IMG/VR virus record: IMGVR_UViG_3300030329_006476 | Span: 39,800-103,799 of that record | Length of the DNA stretch: 64,000 bases | Reading direction: 5' to 3' (one strand) | From: a virus | Part shown: one piece after another, positions 40,808 through 59,583 of the stretch | How positions within the stretch are numbered: position 1 is the first letter of the stretch | How the letters are laid out: each line of letters starts with the position of its first letter | Translations under genes and position numbers: made by a program | Notes under the pieces: model-generated | Seen by the model: the letters and a program-made list of their open reading frames with translations, nothing else | Database searches by the model: none | Told to the model about the DNA's origin: nothing

Positions 40808-43273
40808 TTATTTGAAGACGGCAGAAACTTGAATCTCTCCCGCACTCTCTTTGGCTATAATTCGTTTAAGAGAAGCGGGCGCGTGATGCAGCAGTAAAGA
40901 GGCGCAAGGGTTAGTCAGGTGCGATTCGATAAGAGATTGAATAGGACGGGCGCCATCATTGGCCTCGAGGGCTTTGGCCGTTAATAATTTGATGGCCGTT
41001 TTATAAACAGAGAGTTGGACGCCTTGGCTTTTTAGTTTAGATTTTAACTCTGTTAGTTGGAGATCAATAATTTCGGCAAAATCTTCTTCTGTGAAATTCT
41101 TAAAAATCACTAAATCATCTAGGCGGTTAAGAAATTCAGGAGCGAAATGAGACTTCAGTTCATCCGTGATTTTTTCCCGAATAGAATCCGGATCGTTTAA
41201 ATTAAGAGAGCCCATAAAGCCGACGCCCGCCTTGCCTTTGGTGAATTGAGAGCCTACATTTCCCGTTAAAAGGAGAACGCAATTTTTGAAGTTGATAAGG
41301 CGCCCCATATTATCGGTGATAGTTCCTTCGTCTAGGATCTGCAAGAGCATTTGTATGACATTGGCATGAGCTTTTTCAATCTCATCAAAAAGGATAACGC
41401 TATACGGCTTTTTGCGCACTGACTCCGTTAAATGACCCGATTGATCGTAGCCTACGTAGCCGGGGGCCGACCCAATAAGTTTTGAGCTAGTGAAGCTGTC
41501 CGAATATTCCACCATATTAATATTGATAAAATTATCTTTGTGGCCAAATAAAGCTTTGGCTAAAACCTTGGCTGTGTGAGTTTTTCCTACTCCCGACGAA
41601 CCCAAAAGCAAAAATGAACCAATCGGACGGTCTTCATTCTTGAGGCCTGCACCATTCCTTAGTAAGGATTTGCAAATTCGAGAAATGGCATCTTGTTGCC
41701 CTATAATTTTCTCCAAAAGTAAGGACTCCAACGCTAAAAAGGACTCTCTGGAATCCCGGGAAATTTGCTCCACCGGAACATCAATCTTATGAGCTATGAT
41801 ACTATAAATGTCCGACGGAGAAACGTGAAAGTCTTGGGCAGAATTTTCCTTACTCCACCGGTCTAAGATCTTTTTGTAGCGAGAAAAGAGGAGCTGCTGC
41901 TCCGTAGCTAAATGGGCTTTTGCCGCTATAGACGGGGCTTCATCTTCAGCTTCCATCAGCTCTTCTAGCTTTTGCTCGATTTCCTTAGCCTCGGTGGGAC
42001 GTTTGAAATTGGCAATCTTTACCTTTGAGCCAGCTTGATCCAGAATATCTATGGCTTTGTCCGGAAGGCGACGATCATGTATATATTTGGTAGAAAGATC
42101 AATGCATAAATCTAAAGTTTCTGGCTTATAAGAGACCTGATGAAAGGTTTCATAAGTGGGTAATATCCCTTCGAGTATCTGACGACATTCAGCTTTGGAG
42201 GGTTCGTCTATATAAAGGGATTGAAAACGACGCGCTAAGGCCCCATCTTTTTCAATATGTTTTTTGTACTCGCTCGAAGTGGTGGCGCCTATACACCTGA
42301 TTTCTCCCCGCGCCAGCATTGGTTTTAAGATGTTGGCGGCGTCCATAGTGCCTTCCGCGCTTCCAGCTCCCACCAGCGTATGAAGCTCATCTATAAAAAG
42401 AATAAGGTTGGGAAGCTCTTTAACCTCTTTTATGACATTCTTTAAGCGCTCCTCAAACTGACCCCGGTATTTGGTGCCGGCAATCATAGAAGCCAAATCC
42501 AGACCAAAAATGACATGACCCAACAAGTGATCAGAACAATCAGCGCGCACAATATGATTGGCCAAACCTTCAACGAGGGCAGTCTTTCCTATGCCCGGCT
42601 CACCCAGAAGAAGGGGGTTGTTTTTGCTTTTACGACAAAGGATTTCGGTTATTTCTGCAAGAGCTTCCTCCCGACAAATAACATCAGTAAATTTACCTTG
42701 CGTGGCCAATTCATTATAATTGATAGCAAAAGATTCAAGGGCACTGGGGGTACGCTGAGATTTCTTGGAGGGAGCGCTACGCTTATTGCTTGCAGATCTA
42801 ATCTGTTTTTCGGCATTAATGAGAGCTTCGGAAGACTCAAGCATTTGAGCTTTAAGAGCTAAAGAAAGAGCTTTGGGGTCAATGGCCGCCAAATCAAAAA
42901 TCTCAGAAACTTCAGAATCCTTGTAAGAAATTAAGGAAATTAAAACATGTTCCGTAGCTACATAGGGATGCTCCAGAACTTGAGCCTCATTATAAGCATT
43001 TGAAAGAACCTCTTTGACGTCAGGAGAAAAGCGAACTTCAGAAGGTTCGGTATCCATAAGTGAAAAATCAGACTCTACGAGCGCTCTAAAGGCATCTAAA
43101 TCATAGCCTGTTACATTAAAAATCTCGCGCAGTAATCCTCGACCTTGAGATAAAAGACCAAAAAGAAGATGCCGCAAGTCTATGGTCGAATGATTGTAAT
43201 CAAGCGCGCATTCTCGGGCTTTTTTAATGGCTTCTTGGGCTCGAGGAGTAAAGTTGGGAACAGCATCCATCAT
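40808..43273 (-). CDS. clpC: ClpC/ClpA-type AAA+ unfoldase
   Basis: 821 aa, full length. A double Clp N-domain (FTPRAQEAIKKARECA; FSPDVKEVLSNAYNEAQ), a first AAA+ domain with Walker A GEPGIGKTA and Walker B LILFIDELHTL, a middle segment of about 70 residues (shorter than in ClpB), a second AAA+ domain with GSSGVGKTH and VILFDEIEKAH, and the D2-small domain. VGF in KAGVGFMGS sits where ClpA/C carry the ClpP-docking loop, so it may feed host ClpP. No phage ClpP is seen here. A phage tmRNA lies 16 kb upstream. It follows the polymerase gene in the replication operon. Confidence 0.9.
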   Translation of the reverse strand: MMDAVPNFTPRAQEAIKKARECALDYNHSTIDLRHLLFGLLSQGRGLLREIFNVTGYDLDAFRALVESDFSLMDTEPSEVRFSPDVKEVLSNAYNEAQVLEHPYVATEHVLISLISYKDSEVSEIFDLAAIDPKALSLALKAQMLESSEALINAEKQIRSASNKRSAPSKKSQRTPSALESFAINYNELATQGKFTDVICREEALAEITEILCRKSKNNPLLLGEPGIGKTALVEGLANHIVRADCSDHLLGHVIFGLDLASMIAGTKYRGQFEERLKNVIKEVKELPNLILFIDELHTLVGAGSAEGTMDAANILKPMLARGEIRCIGATTSSEYKKHIEKDGALARRFQSLYIDEPSKAECRQILEGILPTYETFHQVSYKPETLDLCIDLSTKYIHDRRLPDKAIDILDQAGSKVKIANFKRPTEAKEIEQKLEELMEAEDEAPSIAAKAHLATEQQLLFSRYKKILDRWSKENSAQDFHVSPSDIYSIIAHKIDVPVEQISRDSRESFLALESLLLEKIIGQQDAISRICKSLLRNGAGLKNEDRPIGSFLLLGSSGVGKTHTAKVLAKALFGHKDNFININMVEYSDSFTSSKLIGSAPGYVGYDQSGHLTESVRKKPYSVILFDEIEKAHANVIQMLLQILDEGTITDNMGRLINFKNCVLLLTGNVGSQFTKGKAGVGFMGSLNLNDPDSIREKITDELKSHFAPEFLNRLDDLVIFKNFTEEDFAEIIDLQLTELKSKLKSQGVQLSVYKTAIKLLTAKALEANDGARPIQSLIESHLTNPCASLLLHHAPASLKRIIAKESAGEIQVSAVFK

Positions 43274-43283
43274 TATATTTACA

Positions 43284-45875
43284 CTAGGCAGCCTTAAGGT
43301 CGCTCAGCTTCATGTAGATTTTTTCATTCATTAGGGCGCAATCTTGAGCAAAGAGAATCTCATCCCCCTTGCTGCCATAACATACTATAATACTATCTTT
43401 AGAGATCCCCGCAGGGTTTTTCTCAAGAAAATTAGTAAGCGAATTAATCCGGCGCCACCGGCCATTCTCCATCCGCGCATTACGATCCATAAGCATCACC
43501 GCATATTCTCCCACCTCATCCCTTAATATAAGCTTTAAATAGTTATTGCCGTTCCGACTTGTTCCTTTAAAGAAATCCGCAACCACCCCAATAAACCTAC
43601 CATATCTCTCCCGCTCTAAATGACGAAAGTCCAGAGAGTCTAAAAACTTTTCTCCACTCTCGTTAAAAACTTCTTTAAGGGAAATGGTGGGACTATAGCC
43701 GAGAAGCTTATTTTCGAAATACCAATTAGCGAACTTTTCATATTTCTTATTTTTTAAATAAATCTCCTTATAGGGAAGGTATTTCTTTTTGAAAGTTTCG
43801 AATCTGCTTTCCTTCATTACTGGACGGCCATCATCGCCGACTAGAGACTCGGTTACAACGGCTTGAATGGTATTCAGGACATCCCATTCATATTTGGGTC
43901 CAAGCGCCTCAAAATTACGCTTCTCCCTATCGGTCAACAGGTTGAATGCCTGTGCCTCCAGCACTAAGCGAGCTCGTTTGGACGTGTAGCCGGTTAGGGC
44001 GCCAGCTTGAATCAAAGCCGAGAGAATGCCGATGTTGAGCCCCGCTTCCTTCGCTGATAAAAAGATGTCGTATTTGGTAGGATTCGAGCTTTTGCGAAAA
44101 TCATGAAGCGCTTTTAAGGATTTTTCACTCACCCCTTTAATACTATTCAGGCCAAAGCGAATATCCCCATCTTCAAGGCGAAAATCCATGCTCGATTTTG
44201 CTAGGTCAGGGGGTAACAAATCGATCCCAAAGAACGAGAGCTCTTGACAAATCTTGCTTATCTCTTCATGGGGGGCGGGCTCGTACTTCGCCATTCGGAG
44301 CAGAGCCATAAAAAAGTTCTGCGGGTAGGTAAATTTTAGATAGGCCGTCCACGCAGCTAAGTTTGCATAAGCCACGCTATGAGATTTATTGAAAGAATAA
44401 TTGGCGCTGTCTTCGGCCACCCTCCATAAAATCTCACCTACCTCCGAATCGAGACTATGCTCTTTTACTTTGGCCTCTATCTTGGCTTGCCAAGCGGGCA
44501 TTTGATCCACCTTTTTCTTTCCTACAATACGCCTTAACTGTTCAGCTTCATCTAGGGTAAAACCAATTTTAACAGCCATCTTCATCAGTTGCTCTTGATA
44601 AAGGGGAATGCCGCCAGTATAAGAGAGTACCTCGTCATATAATTCATGCTGACTTTGGAATTCGCCGGTCTGGGAATATGTAGTATACTGATCCAAAAAC
44701 TCAAGAGCTCCCGGACGAGCGATAGCTACCACGGCACTTAACTCCTCAAGATTTTTAGGCTTGATCTTTTTGCAAACATTGAAATTAGTATGAGCCTCTA
44801 TCTGAAAGAGCCCTTGAGGATGTTCCAGCTTGCGAAAATTCTTATAGATGGAGGGGTCATTGGGGTCCACCGAAGAAATATCAAGATCTAGTTGAGTGCA
44901 CACATCATAAATGACACTCAGGGTGCGTAATCCCAAAATATCGAACTTGACCATCAGCTCGGCCACCCAATTCATGTCATAGCCCGTAACGAGAGACCCA
45001 TCATTGGTAAGTTGAACAGGGCAAATATCTTCTAACTTCTGATAAGAAATAGCAATTCCGGAAGGGTGAACCCCTGTATTCTTATGAAGGCCTTCAAGCC
45101 GTCGCGCAATGATAAAAACTTCCTTATTGGAATTGGCCCAATCCTCAAACGCCGGGGTCGTTTCGTACGCAGTTAAGAGAGGAGCAACCTTTCCGAAATG
45201 TTTGGGGATGAGATCGCTGACTATATTTACCTCTTGCTCGGAGTAATTCCCGACAATTTTACCACATTCCTTAATACATAGCTTACCGCTTAAGGTGTTC
45301 AGGGTTAAGATCTTGGCAGTTCGCCCCGGATACTTCGATTCAATGTATTCTATGACCTCCTGACGCCTTTCGTAGCTAATGTCATTGTCTACATCGGCCA
45401 ACAGTGTTCCATCCAGATAGGTCACCCCATCTTTCTCTATCTTTTTCGCGCGACTCTTGCTAACGAATCTCTCAAAGAATAAATCGTACTTAACAGGATC
45501 GACTTTTGTAACATTAATAAGATAAAGAACGAGAGAACCGGCCGCAGAACCACGGCCCGGACCGGTAGGAATATCATTAACATGGCAATAATTAAGAATA
45601 TCCCAATTGAGTAAAATGTAATCGATAAAACCCAATTCATTAAGGATTTCCATCTCCATTTCGACGCGATCAAGGTACTCCTCTTTGTTTTCGAGTTCAT
45701 TAATGCCAAGCCTTTCGATACCTTGAGAGCATAATTCTCTCAAGAATTCATAGTTTGAACAATTGCTATCGATGCCCAGTTCTTTGTAGTAGCGAGACTC
45801 AATTTTAATCTCGGGCAACCGCACCCCCGGAGGGGTAATGTCATCATAGCGGGAAAAATCATCATAAAAACTCAT
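43284..45875 (-). CDS. dnaE: DNA polymerase III alpha core (no PHP domain)
   Basis: 863 aa. Begins exactly where the polymerase core follows PHP in normal DnaE. GPGRGSAAGS (105-114) is the palm motif. Catalytic acids are Asp161, Asp163 and Asp165 in ADVDNDI, with the third in VKFDILGLRTL (Asp312). Fingers motif GYSFNKSH is present as NYSFNKSHSVAYA, followed by the HhH region and a C-terminal OB fold (GRFIGVVADFFKGTSRNGNN). The PHP domain is encoded separately at 47474-48235, with GMP reductase and exonuclease genes between. It should be the phage replicative polymerase. Confidence 0.92.
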   Translation of the reverse strand: MSFYDDFSRYDDITPPGVRLPEIKIESRYYKELGIDSNCSNYEFLRELCSQGIERLGINELENKEEYLDRVEMEMEILNELGFIDYILLNWDILNYCHVNDIPTGPGRGSAAGSLVLYLINVTKVDPVKYDLFFERFVSKSRAKKIEKDGVTYLDGTLLADVDNDISYERRQEVIEYIESKYPGRTAKILTLNTLSGKLCIKECGKIVGNYSEQEVNIVSDLIPKHFGKVAPLLTAYETTPAFEDWANSNKEVFIIARRLEGLHKNTGVHPSGIAISYQKLEDICPVQLTNDGSLVTGYDMNWVAELMVKFDILGLRTLSVIYDVCTQLDLDISSVDPNDPSIYKNFRKLEHPQGLFQIEAHTNFNVCKKIKPKNLEELSAVVAIARPGALEFLDQYTTYSQTGEFQSQHELYDEVLSYTGGIPLYQEQLMKMAVKIGFTLDEAEQLRRIVGKKKVDQMPAWQAKIEAKVKEHSLDSEVGEILWRVAEDSANYSFNKSHSVAYANLAAWTAYLKFTYPQNFFMALLRMAKYEPAPHEEISKICQELSFFGIDLLPPDLAKSSMDFRLEDGDIRFGLNSIKGVSEKSLKALHDFRKSSNPTKYDIFLSAKEAGLNIGILSALIQAGALTGYTSKRARLVLEAQAFNLLTDREKRNFEALGPKYEWDVLNTIQAVVTESLVGDDGRPVMKESRFETFKKKYLPYKEIYLKNKKYEKFANWYFENKLLGYSPTISLKEVFNESGEKFLDSLDFRHLERERYGRFIGVVADFFKGTSRNGNNYLKLILRDEVGEYAVMLMDRNARMENGRWRRINSLTNFLEKNPAGISKDSIIVCYGSKGDEILFAQDCALMNEKIYMKLSDLKAA

Positions 45876-46513
45876 ATTTCTAAATTCCAGATCAACTTTT
45901 TAAAAACTTCGTAGTTCTTCCGAATGTCATAAAGGGCATCGTGAAGGCGCTTTGGGTCAAAAGGTATCTCATATTGCTTGCAGAGGTCAATAAGCTTATT
46001 ACGCCCCTTCGCTTTGCGCAAGGAAAGCATTTTATACTGCCAATGGAGTAGGTCATCTCCCGCATTAACTTCGATTCCATTATTAATAGCCCGAGCAAGG
46101 CATAGGGTGTCGAGAAAAGTAGGCAGGTATCTGTAATCCGGAGATTGCCCAAGGAGTCGCCGGCAAATACCATGCATGTAAACATCAAAACCAAGGATAT
46201 TGTGCCCCACCTTAAGGTAAGAATCATCGTAAAGATACCTTTCGAAATGAGCCAGAGGCTGCTTGGGATCCACCGCCTTGTTATTATACTTCTCTCGTGT
46301 CCATCCGGTTACCTTGGCGGCCCCCTGAGAAACATTCAGGCCTTCCCATTTGAGCCAATAATCTTTCTCCTCGGCCACCTTCCCGTCTTCCACGGTGATA
46401 AAGGCAAGCTGCCAAGGCTTGTTGCGTAAGGAGCCCAAGTTGAGACCACAGGTCTCAAAATCAAAAAAAACATACTTTTGATCTTGTTTAAAGCGTAGGA
46501 GCTCCGTCTTCAT
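45872..46513 (-). CDS. DnaQ-like 3'-5' exonuclease (DEDDh)
   Basis: 213 aa. Exo I is FFDFETCGLN, Exo II is VGHNILGFDVYMHG and Exo III is HDALYDIRKNYEVF (His and Asp of DEDDh). It lies directly before the DnaE core with ATGA coupling and after GMP reductase, so it is probably the proofreading subunit of this polymerase. Confidence 0.9.
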   Translation of the reverse strand: MKTELLRFKQDQKYVFFDFETCGLNLGSLRNKPWQLAFITVEDGKVAEEKDYWLKWEGLNVSQGAAKVTGWTREKYNNKAVDPKQPLAHFERYLYDDSYLKVGHNILGFDVYMHGICRRLLGQSPDYRYLPTFLDTLCLARAINNGIEVNAGDDLLHWQYKMLSLRKAKGRNKLIDLCKQYEIPFDPKRLHDALYDIRKNYEVFKKLIWNLEI

Positions 46514-47487
46514 ACCTCAATATACCTTACGTTTTTAAAAGCCGCTACATTAGTCCCCCCAGCATAACTTATAGCACTCTGAAGATCTTCCGTAATCTCC
46601 TTTAGCTTGGTATCGAGGTTCATCCCGCAAGAAGGGACGTTTTTAAGCTTCCCTTCGATGTGGGTTGCAGTCTTTTTATTTTCAAAACTTGCGGATCCAT
46701 AATAAGCCTTATGCAGAACACCATTGATTTCAATAGAAGCAGAAGGGCTATCAGAACAACAAGCAAAAAGACCGCCAGCCATAACCAAATCCGCTCCAGC
46801 CACCAAAGCCTTGGCGATATCTCCATTTGAACGAATCCCTCCATCAGCAATGATGGGTATCCGTTCGTTTGCATCAAAATCAACCCTAGACGCATAACAG
46901 TCGCCACATTTTTTTATTGAGGTAAACATTGGCATGGTGAAACCCGTTTTGTCTTTCGTGGTGCAAGGGCTCCCTTGTCCAATCCCCACTTTAACATAAT
47001 CCGCACCCCATGCATAAAGGGCTACTACCGCATCAGGAGTAGCTACATTGCCCGCTATGATACAGACCTCCGGGCCAAGGTTCTCGCGCACATATCTAAG
47101 CATATCACGCATTAACTCACAATATCCATGGGCAATATCCAATGTAATAATGTCTACACGGGCGCCGGACGCTCTCAGGGAATCAACGATATCCTTGTCC
47201 CCCTTTTTGACGCCTAAGCTGATGGAGATCGTTTTCCAATTGTTTCGATTTGCATTGTCGATAAAAGATTCAATGTCAACATCAAAACGATGCATCGAGT
47301 AAAGGTAATCATTCTGGCTCAACCATTCGCACTGACGGTCCGAAACCACGGACTTCATGTTTGCGGGCATAACCGGGAGCTTATAGCGACGTCCCTTTAC
47401 GACCACAGAGGTATCGCACTCAGCGCGACTGTTGCAAACCCCGAATTCGGGAATAAGGCAAATGTCAGAATATTTAAGACCTTTCAT
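46510..47487 (-). CDS. guaC: GMP reductase / IMP dehydrogenase family enzyme
   Basis: 325 aa from ATG 47487 (the longer frame overlaps the PHP gene). A TIM barrel without CBS domains. KYSDICLIP start, MPANMKSV, AGNVATPD, and the catalytic loop VGIGQGSPCTTKDKTGF with Cys in CTT and the TG that favours GMP reductase over IMP dehydrogenase. Then PIIADGGIRSNGDIAKAL and AGGLFAC. GMP reductase converts GMP to IMP with NADPH. In the phage it would rebalance purine pools. It lies inside the split polymerase locus. Confidence 0.85.
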   Translation of the reverse strand: MKGLKYSDICLIPEFGVCNSRAECDTSVVVKGRRYKLPVMPANMKSVVSDRQCEWLSQNDYLYSMHRFDVDIESFIDNANRNNWKTISISLGVKKGDKDIVDSLRASGARVDIITLDIAHGYCELMRDMLRYVRENLGPEVCIIAGNVATPDAVVALYAWGADYVKVGIGQGSPCTTKDKTGFTMPMFTSIKKCGDCYASRVDFDANERIPIIADGGIRSNGDIAKALVAGADLVMAGGLFACCSDSPSASIEINGVLHKAYYGSASFENKKTATHIEGKLKNVPSCGMNLDTKLKEITEDLQSAISYAGGTNVAAFKNVRYIEV

Positions 47488-48235
47488 AATCCAGATAGCT
47501 TTCAAAGCAGAATTCAGGACTTCCGCAATGATCAAGATTGGGAACGTCTAGGGTTTTGGACTTGGTGGAAAAGCCGCGACCACAAATGCATTTATAGGTT
47601 TGGTAGGCTTCGAAGTCTTCACGGTTTTCATAGTAAATGCTCTTAACTAATTCTATTTTAAAAGTAGAGCCGCAATATTTTTTTACAGCCGCACGTAATG
47701 GTACGTCAATGGGGAGCAAGTTGTCTTCAATAAAAAAGGTGGGAGAAAAGTAGGAATCGTCAAGGAGGCATGGCTCTCCATAGGAAAATAGATTCTGAAA
47801 AACGAAAGAATCGTAAAAGGGAATTGCTATTTTGAGATCCTCCTCGGAATAGAGGGATTTGAGAGCAGTAAAATCAAGGCGTCCACGCCCAACTGTTTGA
47901 GCCTGAGTATAAATACGATTCAATAATCTTAGGCCTATCGAATTTTTAGCAAAAACTATTATTTTGTGACTGGAGCTTTCTTTGGGGTCTTTAGAAATAT
48001 CGTTGCACATATCCAAACGTAAACCAAATACAAAAGGAATATCAAGCTCGTCTGAACGCCTTTTAGCTTCAAGAAGTCCAATTAAGGAATCTTCCACTAA
48101 AACAAGACGCTCTAGAGAATGGCGTGACGCAATATCAAATACGCTTGAAGAGCCGCCCGAAACAACCGAAGAGGGGTTAGCTAAAGTAAGGATGCTTCGC
48201 CCAACGCTATAATGGGACTTAAATAAAGGAAACAT
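47474..48235 (-). CDS. stand-alone PHP domain of DNA polymerase III alpha, degenerate
   Basis: 253 aa. Matches the DnaE PHP domain in order: a start where the usual HLHxHYSLLDG is FKSHYSVGRSI (the first His pair is not kept), PFVFGLRLDM (where DnaE has PIIGCE), KIIVFAKNSIGLRLLNRIYT, and the C-terminal AYQTYKCICGRGFSTKSKTL. Loss of the His pair suggests no metal-dependent phosphoesterase activity; a structural role is more likely. It heads the polymerase operon; the promoter ends 6 nt before the ATG. Confidence 0.8.
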   Translation of the reverse strand: MFPLFKSHYSVGRSILTLANPSSVVSGGSSSVFDIASRHSLERLVLVEDSLIGLLEAKRRSDELDIPFVFGLRLDMCNDISKDPKESSSHKIIVFAKNSIGLRLLNRIYTQAQTVGRGRLDFTALKSLYSEEDLKIAIPFYDSFVFQNLFSYGEPCLLDDSYFSPTFFIEDNLLPIDVPLRAAVKKYCGSTFKIELVKSIYYENREDFEAYQTYKCICGRGFSTKSKTLDVPNLDHCGSPEFCFESYLDYERS

Positions 48236-48483: not shown

Positions 48484-49395
48484 TTATTCAGTGGAGGGGC
48501 GAGATGTTGGAGTTACTTTGATGAGGAAAGGTGCCGTTCTATCCAAGCTGTGATCCTTGACTCCGCTAGCACTAAAATTATTTGTCTCCACTGAATATTT
48601 TTCTATCTCCTCTAGAGAGGGGGTTTTGAGGGATGGGTCAAGAGCCCACAAAATCTTATTCTTGGCGGCCCATGCACGCATTCGCCGAATGGGAACGATA
48701 AAGTTAAAGCCTTCACCGGCCCCACGCACTAGCATCCCGACATACGTACCATCCGTTAAGAAAACTCCGCCCCCCGAACTACCCGGAAAAGCGGTAACTG
48801 TAGTCTGATCAAATTCAGACTTCCCTAACGTGCGCCCTACTTGGGCAACGATTCCCGTAGTCATGGAATTGGCGCCCATCTGCCCCAAGAGCGAACCCAC
48901 ATGAAACAAGCGCGTCCCAATAGGAATAATGGGCTCTTTCTCATTAAGATAAAAGGCGGCAGACCCTTTTCCATAATCAGTAGCCCGTACCATAAGCAGT
49001 GCTAAATCATGACCATGATCATAGTCGCTATACTTGATTACCTTCGCGTCCATTTTAATTTCCCCGACGCGTCTACCCCCTTCCACAAGCTCCTTTACAA
49101 TCTGAGCGTCCTTAAATTCAACAATTTTACGAGTGTTGCCTTTTTCGTCCACCACTTCTCGAGTGGAGCGTAAATTGTCCACTACATGAGCCGCAGTCCA
49201 AACAAAAGTAACCTTTTTTTCTTCAATTGTACGAACGATAAGAACTCCGGAACCCTCGGACTTCTTATAATCATCCTCGGCCTTAATGGTTACCGAAATA
49301 TTCTGGAGATGGGATGCTACCTTTTTCCGCTCGGCAACATCGGCTGCCAAAACAAAGGAGACGCTAAACAAGAAGGCTGTTATTATTTTTTTCAT
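48484..49395 (-). CDS. secreted trypsin-like (HtrA-like) serine protease
   Basis: 303 aa. Signal peptide MKKIITAFLFSVSFVLA, then a chymotrypsin fold: His70 in FVWTAAHVV, Asp130 in YDHGHDLALLMV and Ser207 in FPGSSGGGVF. A Pro/Ser-rich tail follows and there is no PDZ domain. Expected in the periplasm. Targets are unknown: host surface proteins, or phage lysis or assembly proteins. It is co-transcribed with a membrane protein upstream. Confidence 0.85.
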   Translation of the reverse strand: MKKIITAFLFSVSFVLAADVAERKKVASHLQNISVTIKAEDDYKKSEGSGVLIVRTIEEKKVTFVWTAAHVVDNLRSTREVVDEKGNTRKIVEFKDAQIVKELVEGGRRVGEIKMDAKVIKYSDYDHGHDLALLMVRATDYGKGSAAFYLNEKEPIIPIGTRLFHVGSLLGQMGANSMTTGIVAQVGRTLGKSEFDQTTVTAFPGSSGGGVFLTDGTYVGMLVRGAGEGFNFIVPIRRMRAWAAKNKILWALDPSLKTPSLEEIEKYSVETNNFSASGVKDHSLDRTAPFLIKVTPTSRPSTE

Positions 49396-58598: not shown

Positions 58599-58999
58599 TG
58601 GTGGAGGTGGCGGTAGTCGAAACCGCGTCCTGAGCATCTTCAAACAAACACATCTACAAGCTTAGTCAATTTTTTTTATAGTTATGATATTGACATCCAA
58701 CTTCTTGTTTCAATTATTGGCAGTTTGTGATACAAGCAAACTTTTGTCTGTTTTTGCAGATGGATGACCCCTTGTCCCCTTTATCTGCGTCAAGAAGCAA
58801 GAGGTAGCGGGTGTTTAAGCCGCTAGGGCAAGCTTGCGGCCCTTGAAGCCGAAACGCTTCGCAGCGAGACGGTTCTTGAAACCTAAAGCTCTAACACGGT
58901 TTTTGTTGCCATGTACAACTTTGCGCCTTTTTTCGAAGCCGGGCGCCTCTTCGACTTGCAGTGCATGAATCCAACCCCAGTCGAATCCATTACACCCCC
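58599..58999 (-). ncRNA. ssrA: tmRNA (transfer-messenger RNA)
   Basis: 401 nt, complete. The 5' end GGGGGTGTAATGGATTCGAC matches the conserved tmRNA start. The 3' end has a T-arm (GCGGT-TTCGACT-ACCGC) and ends CACCTCCACCA. The 7-bp acceptor stem GGGGGUG/CACCUCC keeps the G3-U70 alanine identity pair. Pseudoknot 1 is CGAAG/CTTCG plus GCGCC/GGCGC. Helix 5 (TAGCGG/CCGCTA) encloses the tag stop. Near the 3' end GACTAAGCTTGTAGATG matches the bacterial consensus. It rescues stalled ribosomes and tags nascent proteins. CCA is encoded. Own promoter at 59024-59052. Confidence 0.95.
58815..58910 (-). other. tmRNA tag reading frame (31 codons plus stop)
   Basis: The resume codon is placed at GGC (58910-58908), 12 nt after pseudoknot 1, as in E. 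coli tmRNA. The tag reads GNKNRVRALGFKNRLAAKRF, then GFKGRKLALAA and a TAA stop. The LALAA end is the normal ClpXP-type degron. The tag is much longer than the common 8-20 residues and has 10 Lys/Arg and no acid. The exact resume codon is inferred. Confidence 0.8.
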
Positions 59000-59023: not shown

Positions 59024-59052
59024 AGTATACACCATTCATTCTTTTTTGTCAA
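59024..59052 (-). promoter_or_regulatory. sigma70-like promoter of the tmRNA
   Basis: TTGACA (59052-59047), 17-bp spacer, TATACT (59029-59024). Transcription should start near 59017, leaving about 18 nt to be trimmed from the mature 5' end at 58999. The -35 lies in the last codons of the lipoprotein gene. Confidence 0.85.
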
Positions 59053-59392: not shown

Positions 59393-59583
59393 GAACATCT
59401 TATTATACGAGTTTTATACTGAAAATCAAGTGGAATAGGAGTAGTGCTGGTAGTACTGGTGGTCGTGGTAGTACTGGTGGTGGTAGTACTGGTGGTGGTA
59501 GTACTGGTCGTACTGGTACTGCTTGTACTGGTGCTAGTTGTAGTTGTGCTAGTTGTGCTAGTAGTGGTGGTTGTTGTCGTTAA
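59389..59583 (-). other. -1 frame Thr/Ser-rich extension of the membrane protein
   Basis: Reading in the -1 frame from the A10 run gives Leu, then 47 codons in a row that are all Thr (ACN) or Ser (AGY), then PIPLDFQYKTRIIRCS and TGA. The stop (59391-59389) overlaps the ATG of the lipoprotein gene as ATGA. The codon-phased composition and the junction indicate real coding, reached by ribosomal frameshifting or transcriptional slippage (or a homopolymer error in the assembly). Confidence 0.75.

Follow-up and report, generated by a model that had tools for sequence, protein, structure and literature searches.

A phage-encoded tmRNA with a long, strongly basic tag, and a family of phage tmRNAs whose long charged tags appear to be kept by selection and swapped between phages

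The window, a 64,000-nucleotide stretch that forms part of a 103,799-base IMG/VR virus record, carries on its minus strand a one-piece tmRNA gene of an uncultured phage that is probably marine. ARAGORN and the Infernal search of Rfam agree on a full-length tmRNA at 58599-58999, and the match to RF00023 (138.4 bits, E 4.2e-54) exceeds the gathering threshold of 47 bits and covers the whole model (positions 1-374 of 374). The acceptor stem contains the alanine identity pair G3-U70, and the 3' CCA is present in the gene. The features of the locus and of the ClpC region, each with the evidence for it, are as follows.

58599..58999, minus strand: phage-encoded one-piece tmRNA (ssrA), mature, CCA encoded (ARAGORN; RF00023)
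59024..59052, minus strand: sigma-70 promoter match TTGACA-17-TATACT, 11/12, about 24 nt upstream of the mature 5' end
58922..58954, minus strand: pseudoknot 1, separated by 12 nt from the resume codon, like E. coli (sequence and Rfam alignment)
58911..58915, minus strand: UACAU, the frame-setting upstream sequence, with U at -5 and A at -4 (sequence; same in relatives)
58815..58910, minus strand: tag reading frame GNKNRVRALGFKNRLAAKRFGFKGRKLALAA plus stop (ARAGORN; relatives; amino-acid selection)
58854..58886, minus strand: 11-codon segment LGFKNRLAAKR, a feature of class B that 20-residue relatives such as GNKDRVRAFGFKSPKLALAA (L304) lack
58818..58832, minus strand: C-terminal LALAA degron, invariant in class B (class-B comparison)
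40808..43273, minus strand: phage ClpC/ClpA-type unfoldase of 821 residues with a VGF ClpP-docking loop (Pfam; alignment)
43284..45875, minus strand: DNA polymerase III alpha-type gene, directly upstream of clpC, which served as control

Other genes of the window encode two sigma-70-like phage proteins (20158-20673 and 30985-31668), an IMP dehydrogenase / GMP reductase-like protein (46513-47535) and, in the replication gene region, a trypsin-like peptidase (48487-49395). Next to the tmRNA region, at 59438-59575, is simple sequence made up of repeated GGT/AGT/ACT triplets.

Position 77 of the tmRNA is the last base of the 3' arm of pseudoknot 1; the 12 bases AAAGUUGUACAU come next, and then GGC. 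The same 12-nt gap between pseudoknot 1 and the resume codon is known for E. coli; the A at position -4 relative to the resume codon fixes the frame (the A86 rule), and U at -5 and A at -4 are known determinants (PMC2481249). The sequence UUACAUGGCAACAA occupies the identical place in relatives with 20-residue tags, and the resume codon, the UA at -5/-4 and the first eight tag residues are conserved across relatives. U at -5, which our frame search preferred without requiring it, is found in 82 of the 84 distinct tmRNAs of the family described below; every bona fide member also has an in-frame codon that fits the spacing and the A at -4, a count that is not independent evidence because A at -4 (and U or C at -5) was a condition of the search itself.

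Read from this codon, the tag GNKNRVRALGFKNRLAAKRFGFKGRKLALAA occupies 58818-58910 and is followed by a stop at 58815-58817; it has 31 residues, of which ten are Lys or Arg and none is Asp or Glu, and its C-terminus consists of the small hydrophobic residues LALAA, the best-conserved part of class B. The background consisted of 84 distinct tags obtained by scanning viral contigs for a general tmRNA pattern, with lengths of 9-31 residues (median 13) and charges of -5 to +4 (median -1), the +4 tag being a doubtful second call where an ordinary tag had been read from the same locus. The charge of +10 lies outside this range, whereas length alone lies at its edge. The first-pass annotation had described the tag as unusually long and strongly basic with a standard LALAA end, and this description is borne out. 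It had also named a resume codon further downstream, with a short tag, as the alternative; this is excluded by the 12-nt spacing, the A at -4 and the selection on the whole peptide, and the resume region is conserved as described above. A chance open frame is excluded by the codon-position pattern and the off-frame controls given below. The tag seemed to resemble ribosomal protein bL34, but it gave no Pfam or PDB sequence match at E values up to 10, in searches whose HMMER filters are weak for so short a query.

Relatives were collected with a DNA signature of the second pseudoknot region, GACGCAGATA N12-22 ATCTGCA N2-4 CAG, which occurs in 97 viral stretches versus only 19 stretches in about 85,000 genome assemblies. 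Of these 19, two are tmRNAs of this kind and lie on contigs of MAGs classified as Halobacteriovorax and Proteobacteria, and nearly all the others have no recognisable tmRNA 5' end. The Halobacteriovorax MAG also contains two other tmRNAs with different tags, so that its binning is doubtful. A further member of the family (L382, G095:C10:7415-7784) was noticed on another contig of a Woesebacteria MAG; its acidic 21-residue tag, GESYNSNPELLPFEEELAMAA, falls outside the classes listed below. The signature is that of 14 full tmRNAs which an Rfam scan had found in 50 phage contigs; 49 of these contigs share a helicase or methyltransferase with the window, and one came from the general tmRNA pattern. 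Two near-identical phages each have, about 13 kb from the full tmRNA, a sub-threshold tmRNA-like match of 108 bases that spans both model ends (G013:C1:15308-15415, L223; G010:C1:26219-26326, L224), possibly a tRNA or a remnant of the tRNA-like domain. A search for close cultured relatives gave only weak matches to phage records, with identities of at most about 34% for the polymerase and 24% for the helicase.

The resulting family comprises 106 phage tmRNA loci with 84 distinct tmRNAs and 59 distinct tags, which were sorted by eye into classes according to length, start and charge.

Class A: 19-21 residues, charge -3 to +7, for example GNKSRIKAYSPKSESLALAA
Class B, that of the window: 31-33 residues, charge +10 to +12
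Class C: 38 residues, charge +7 to +9, AKSKLINGLLDRFNPAKKVASRKVVTRKSVAHQVAAVA
Class D: 34-41 residues, charge -9 to -11, GEGYDSIEELLEAAREEYDNLVQFEQAEELEMVA

One tag of 27 residues falls outside these classes. Nearly all of the 59 tags end in LALAA, AVAA, AAVA, MAA or MVA, and the G3-U70 pair is present in 74 of the 75 members that end in CCA. A promoter-like TTGAC-type box lies at the same distance as in the window in many relatives of classes A1, B, C and D; it was not found at that distance in the A2 and A3 relatives. In this family no tag that ARAGORN outputs exceeds 32 residues; all members of classes C and D receive a wrong or truncated tag or no call at all. ARAGORN was used in a huge-phage survey (PMC7162821) and in a phage survey (PMC9004378); longer tags would therefore be missed there, and surveys based on this program will have overlooked the 34-41-residue tags of such phages.

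Selection on the peptide was assessed with the ten distinct class-B tags of 31 codons. In the tag frame the variable sites are distributed over the three codon positions as 7/6/21, with a pN/pS of 0.21, compared with 1.18 and 1.84 in the two off frames. Classes A and D have a similar codon-position skew; in class C, represented by four distant sequences, the signal is weaker (pN/pS 0.67). Aligned with L304, L295 and L278, class B matches class A tags such as GNKDRVRAFGFKSPKLALAA except for the 11-codon segment. Within this segment 9 of the 11 codons vary but only 3 of the 11 residues do, all conservatively, and Lys and Arg are invariant. These comparisons of codons indicate that the extension of the tag is kept by amino-acid selection. 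The segment might be a partial copy of the second half of the tag, arisen by internal tandem duplication, which the repeat scores do no more than suggest: 10 of 500 peptide shuffles reach the observed score, and most of the nucleotide scores fall inside the upper range of those from codon shuffles.

A tree of the tmRNA with its tag removed requires 9 changes of tag class, versus 50 in shuffles; the number is 13 on the ClpC tree and 14 on the polymerase tree, where shuffles average 17.7 and 17.8. Since fewer changes are needed on the tmRNA tree than on the trees of phage genes, the tmRNA moves largely as a unit between phages. Individual pairs of phages illustrate the same pattern. L004 has, after its tmRNA, a methyltransferase with 88% identity to that of the window, yet the tag of L004 belongs to class C. 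ClpC proteins with 80% identity to each other occur in two phages whose tags have charges of +1 and -9. The trees and these pairs suggest that it is largely whole tmRNA genes with different tags that are exchanged between phages; long tags, positive or negative, thus appear as real elements that are kept by selection and swapped. The choice of host adaptor is a possible driver of this swapping.

The ClpC of the window (P0001) has all the expected Pfam domains (Clp_N, AAA, AAA lid, AAA_2 and D2-small). A hydrophobic-GF loop docks ClpP, and the motif [VILMF]GF was found in 38 of 39 aligned phage ClpC sequences, as VGF in the window. Neither SmpB nor ClpP was found in the 103.8-kb record, which may be incomplete. 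Among 50 related contigs, nearly all of them tmRNA-bearing, ClpC is present in 34, ClpP in one and SmpB in none, absences that carry little weight because IMG/VR contigs are often fragments. The contig of L377 (G037:C1:63578-64045), with a class-C tag, is unlike the other 49 in having a tmRNA, a ClpC and a ClpP-like protease together. ClpC directly adjoins the polymerase in nearly every contig examined and also occurs in relatives where no tmRNA was detected; it is therefore a core gene of the group and no proof of a partner for the tag, although the window ClpC is a possible one. ClpC was found in 1 of 11 phages with A2 or A3 tags, and its presence showed no significant association with long tags (13/16 versus 20/33, Fisher p 0.20).

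From the RNA, its reading frame and tag, the family, the amino-acid selection, the promoter match and the ClpC with its docking loop, we infer the charging, SmpB use, tagging, degradation and role of the extension that make up the following model, which we favour by a modest degree. A sigma-70 promoter of its own would drive the phage tmRNA, the host would charge it with alanine and supply the SmpB that binds it, and the RNA would enter ribosomes that stall during infection. Translation would restart at GGC, so that a 31-residue phage-specific peptide is added, and the terminal LALAA would serve as a degron for a ClpP-based protease, either host ClpXP or ClpAP or the phage ClpC docked on host ClpP. 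The extension would most likely act as a longer engagement handle and an extra contact site for the unfoldase or an adaptor, exchanged between phages along with the tmRNA cassette. This role is the least certain step of the model, and it is favoured by the amino-acid constraint together with the precedent of Mycoplasma, where the tag is co-adapted to Lon. In a bolder and more tentative form, which we hold to be possible but somewhat improbable, a large group of uncultured phages would carry exchangeable tmRNA cassettes whose long charged tags of 31-41 residues, either basic or acidic, are phage-specific address labels, re-routing the products of stalled ribosomes in the infected cell to a protease or location chosen by the phage, with each class matching its own host adaptor or phage partner.

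Several other explanations have been weighed against this model. The tag might simply be tolerated in ordinary trans-translation, with only LALAA mattering and the extension drifting in composition as a neutral spacer. Such a spacer would agree with the wide variation of length and charge across classes, with the conservation of LALAA above the rest of class B, and with the published remark that tmRNA activity suffers little when the tag template is changed (PMC2481249); we nevertheless consider it unlikely, given the pN/pS of 0.21, the few residue changes in the inserted segment and a charge that stays between +10 and +12 throughout the ten distinct tags of class B. The conserved Lys and Arg positions, with ten positive charges over 26 residues and a second basic class in C, could point to retargeting of tagged proteins to nucleic acid, ribosomes or membrane rather than to better proteolysis, and RNA or ribosome binding had indeed been proposed in the first-pass annotation. 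A role specific to charge is disfavoured because homologous genes, some in close relatives, have acidic tags of 34-41 residues or near-neutral tags of 20; the ClpC pair with tags of +1 and -9, the failure of the tag to find anything among Pfam and PDB sequences, and the degron-like C-terminus of all classes speak against it as well, and we regard it as distinctly doubtful. The annotation is thus partly supported as a whole, and on our analysis a different protease or adaptor appears to be the better of its ideas.

A specific reading of the tag by the phage's own ClpC, the two co-evolving as a private degradation pathway on host ClpP, would account for the conserved docking loop, the frequency of ClpC in the group and the phage in which tmRNA, ClpC and ClpP occur together. 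Co-evolution of tag class with ClpC is unsupported, since the ClpC tree fits the tag classes no better than the polymerase tree, ClpC occurs without a detected tmRNA and it is missing from most phages with A2 or A3 tags; with the 80%-identical ClpC proteins paired with very different tags, we judge such private matching quite unlikely. Finally, tmRNA fragments can be picked up by phages at integration sites, and the tmRNA might be a host gene captured by chance or decayed, and not in use. Acquisition of this kind is also discussed in PMC9004378, but the complete structure, the G3-U70 pair, the promoter, about 100 related phage copies and a tag under selection make it highly improbable here.

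Phage tmRNAs are already known; what the present family adds is a tag that itself appears to be selected, long, highly charged and swapped as a cassette, and whose function is for that reason directly testable with a reporter. If the extension steers proteolysis, such tags would be ready-made orthogonal degrons. The window tmRNA shares with bacterial tmRNA (RF00023) the one-piece full length, G3-U70, CCA, the spacing from pseudoknot 1, the A at -4 and LALAA; it differs in its tag (31 residues and +10, against background medians of 13 residues and -1 in the 84 tags from viral contigs) and in belonging to its own phage lineage with the GACGCAGATA...ATCTGCA core. Bxz1-like mycobacteriophages, Bacillus phage G, Streptomyces phages and the OM43 phage Melnitz likewise carry a tmRNA in a tailed phage, and the parts of the sources consulted (PMC4131195, PMC9004378) describe no long, highly charged tag classes for them. 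The annotated tags of Streptomyces phages have 11-13 residues and are near neutral, unlike the window tag, and the tmRNA of Melnitz is two-piece whereas that of the window is one-piece. The extended ssrA tag of Mesoplasma and Mycoplasma, which is read by Lon (PMC9382460, PMC3985003), resembles the window tag in being longer and altered in its recognition region, a change that is linked there to a change of protease. The C-terminus of those tags is AFA, and their hosts are without ClpXP, whereas the window tag ends in LALAA and its phage has ClpC and not Lon. Bacillus phage SPO1 also manipulates host ClpP-based proteolysis, as proposed here, but does so with an adaptor-like protein that acts on host ClpCP (PMC6873191), whereas the present phage would use an unfoldase of its own together with a degron.
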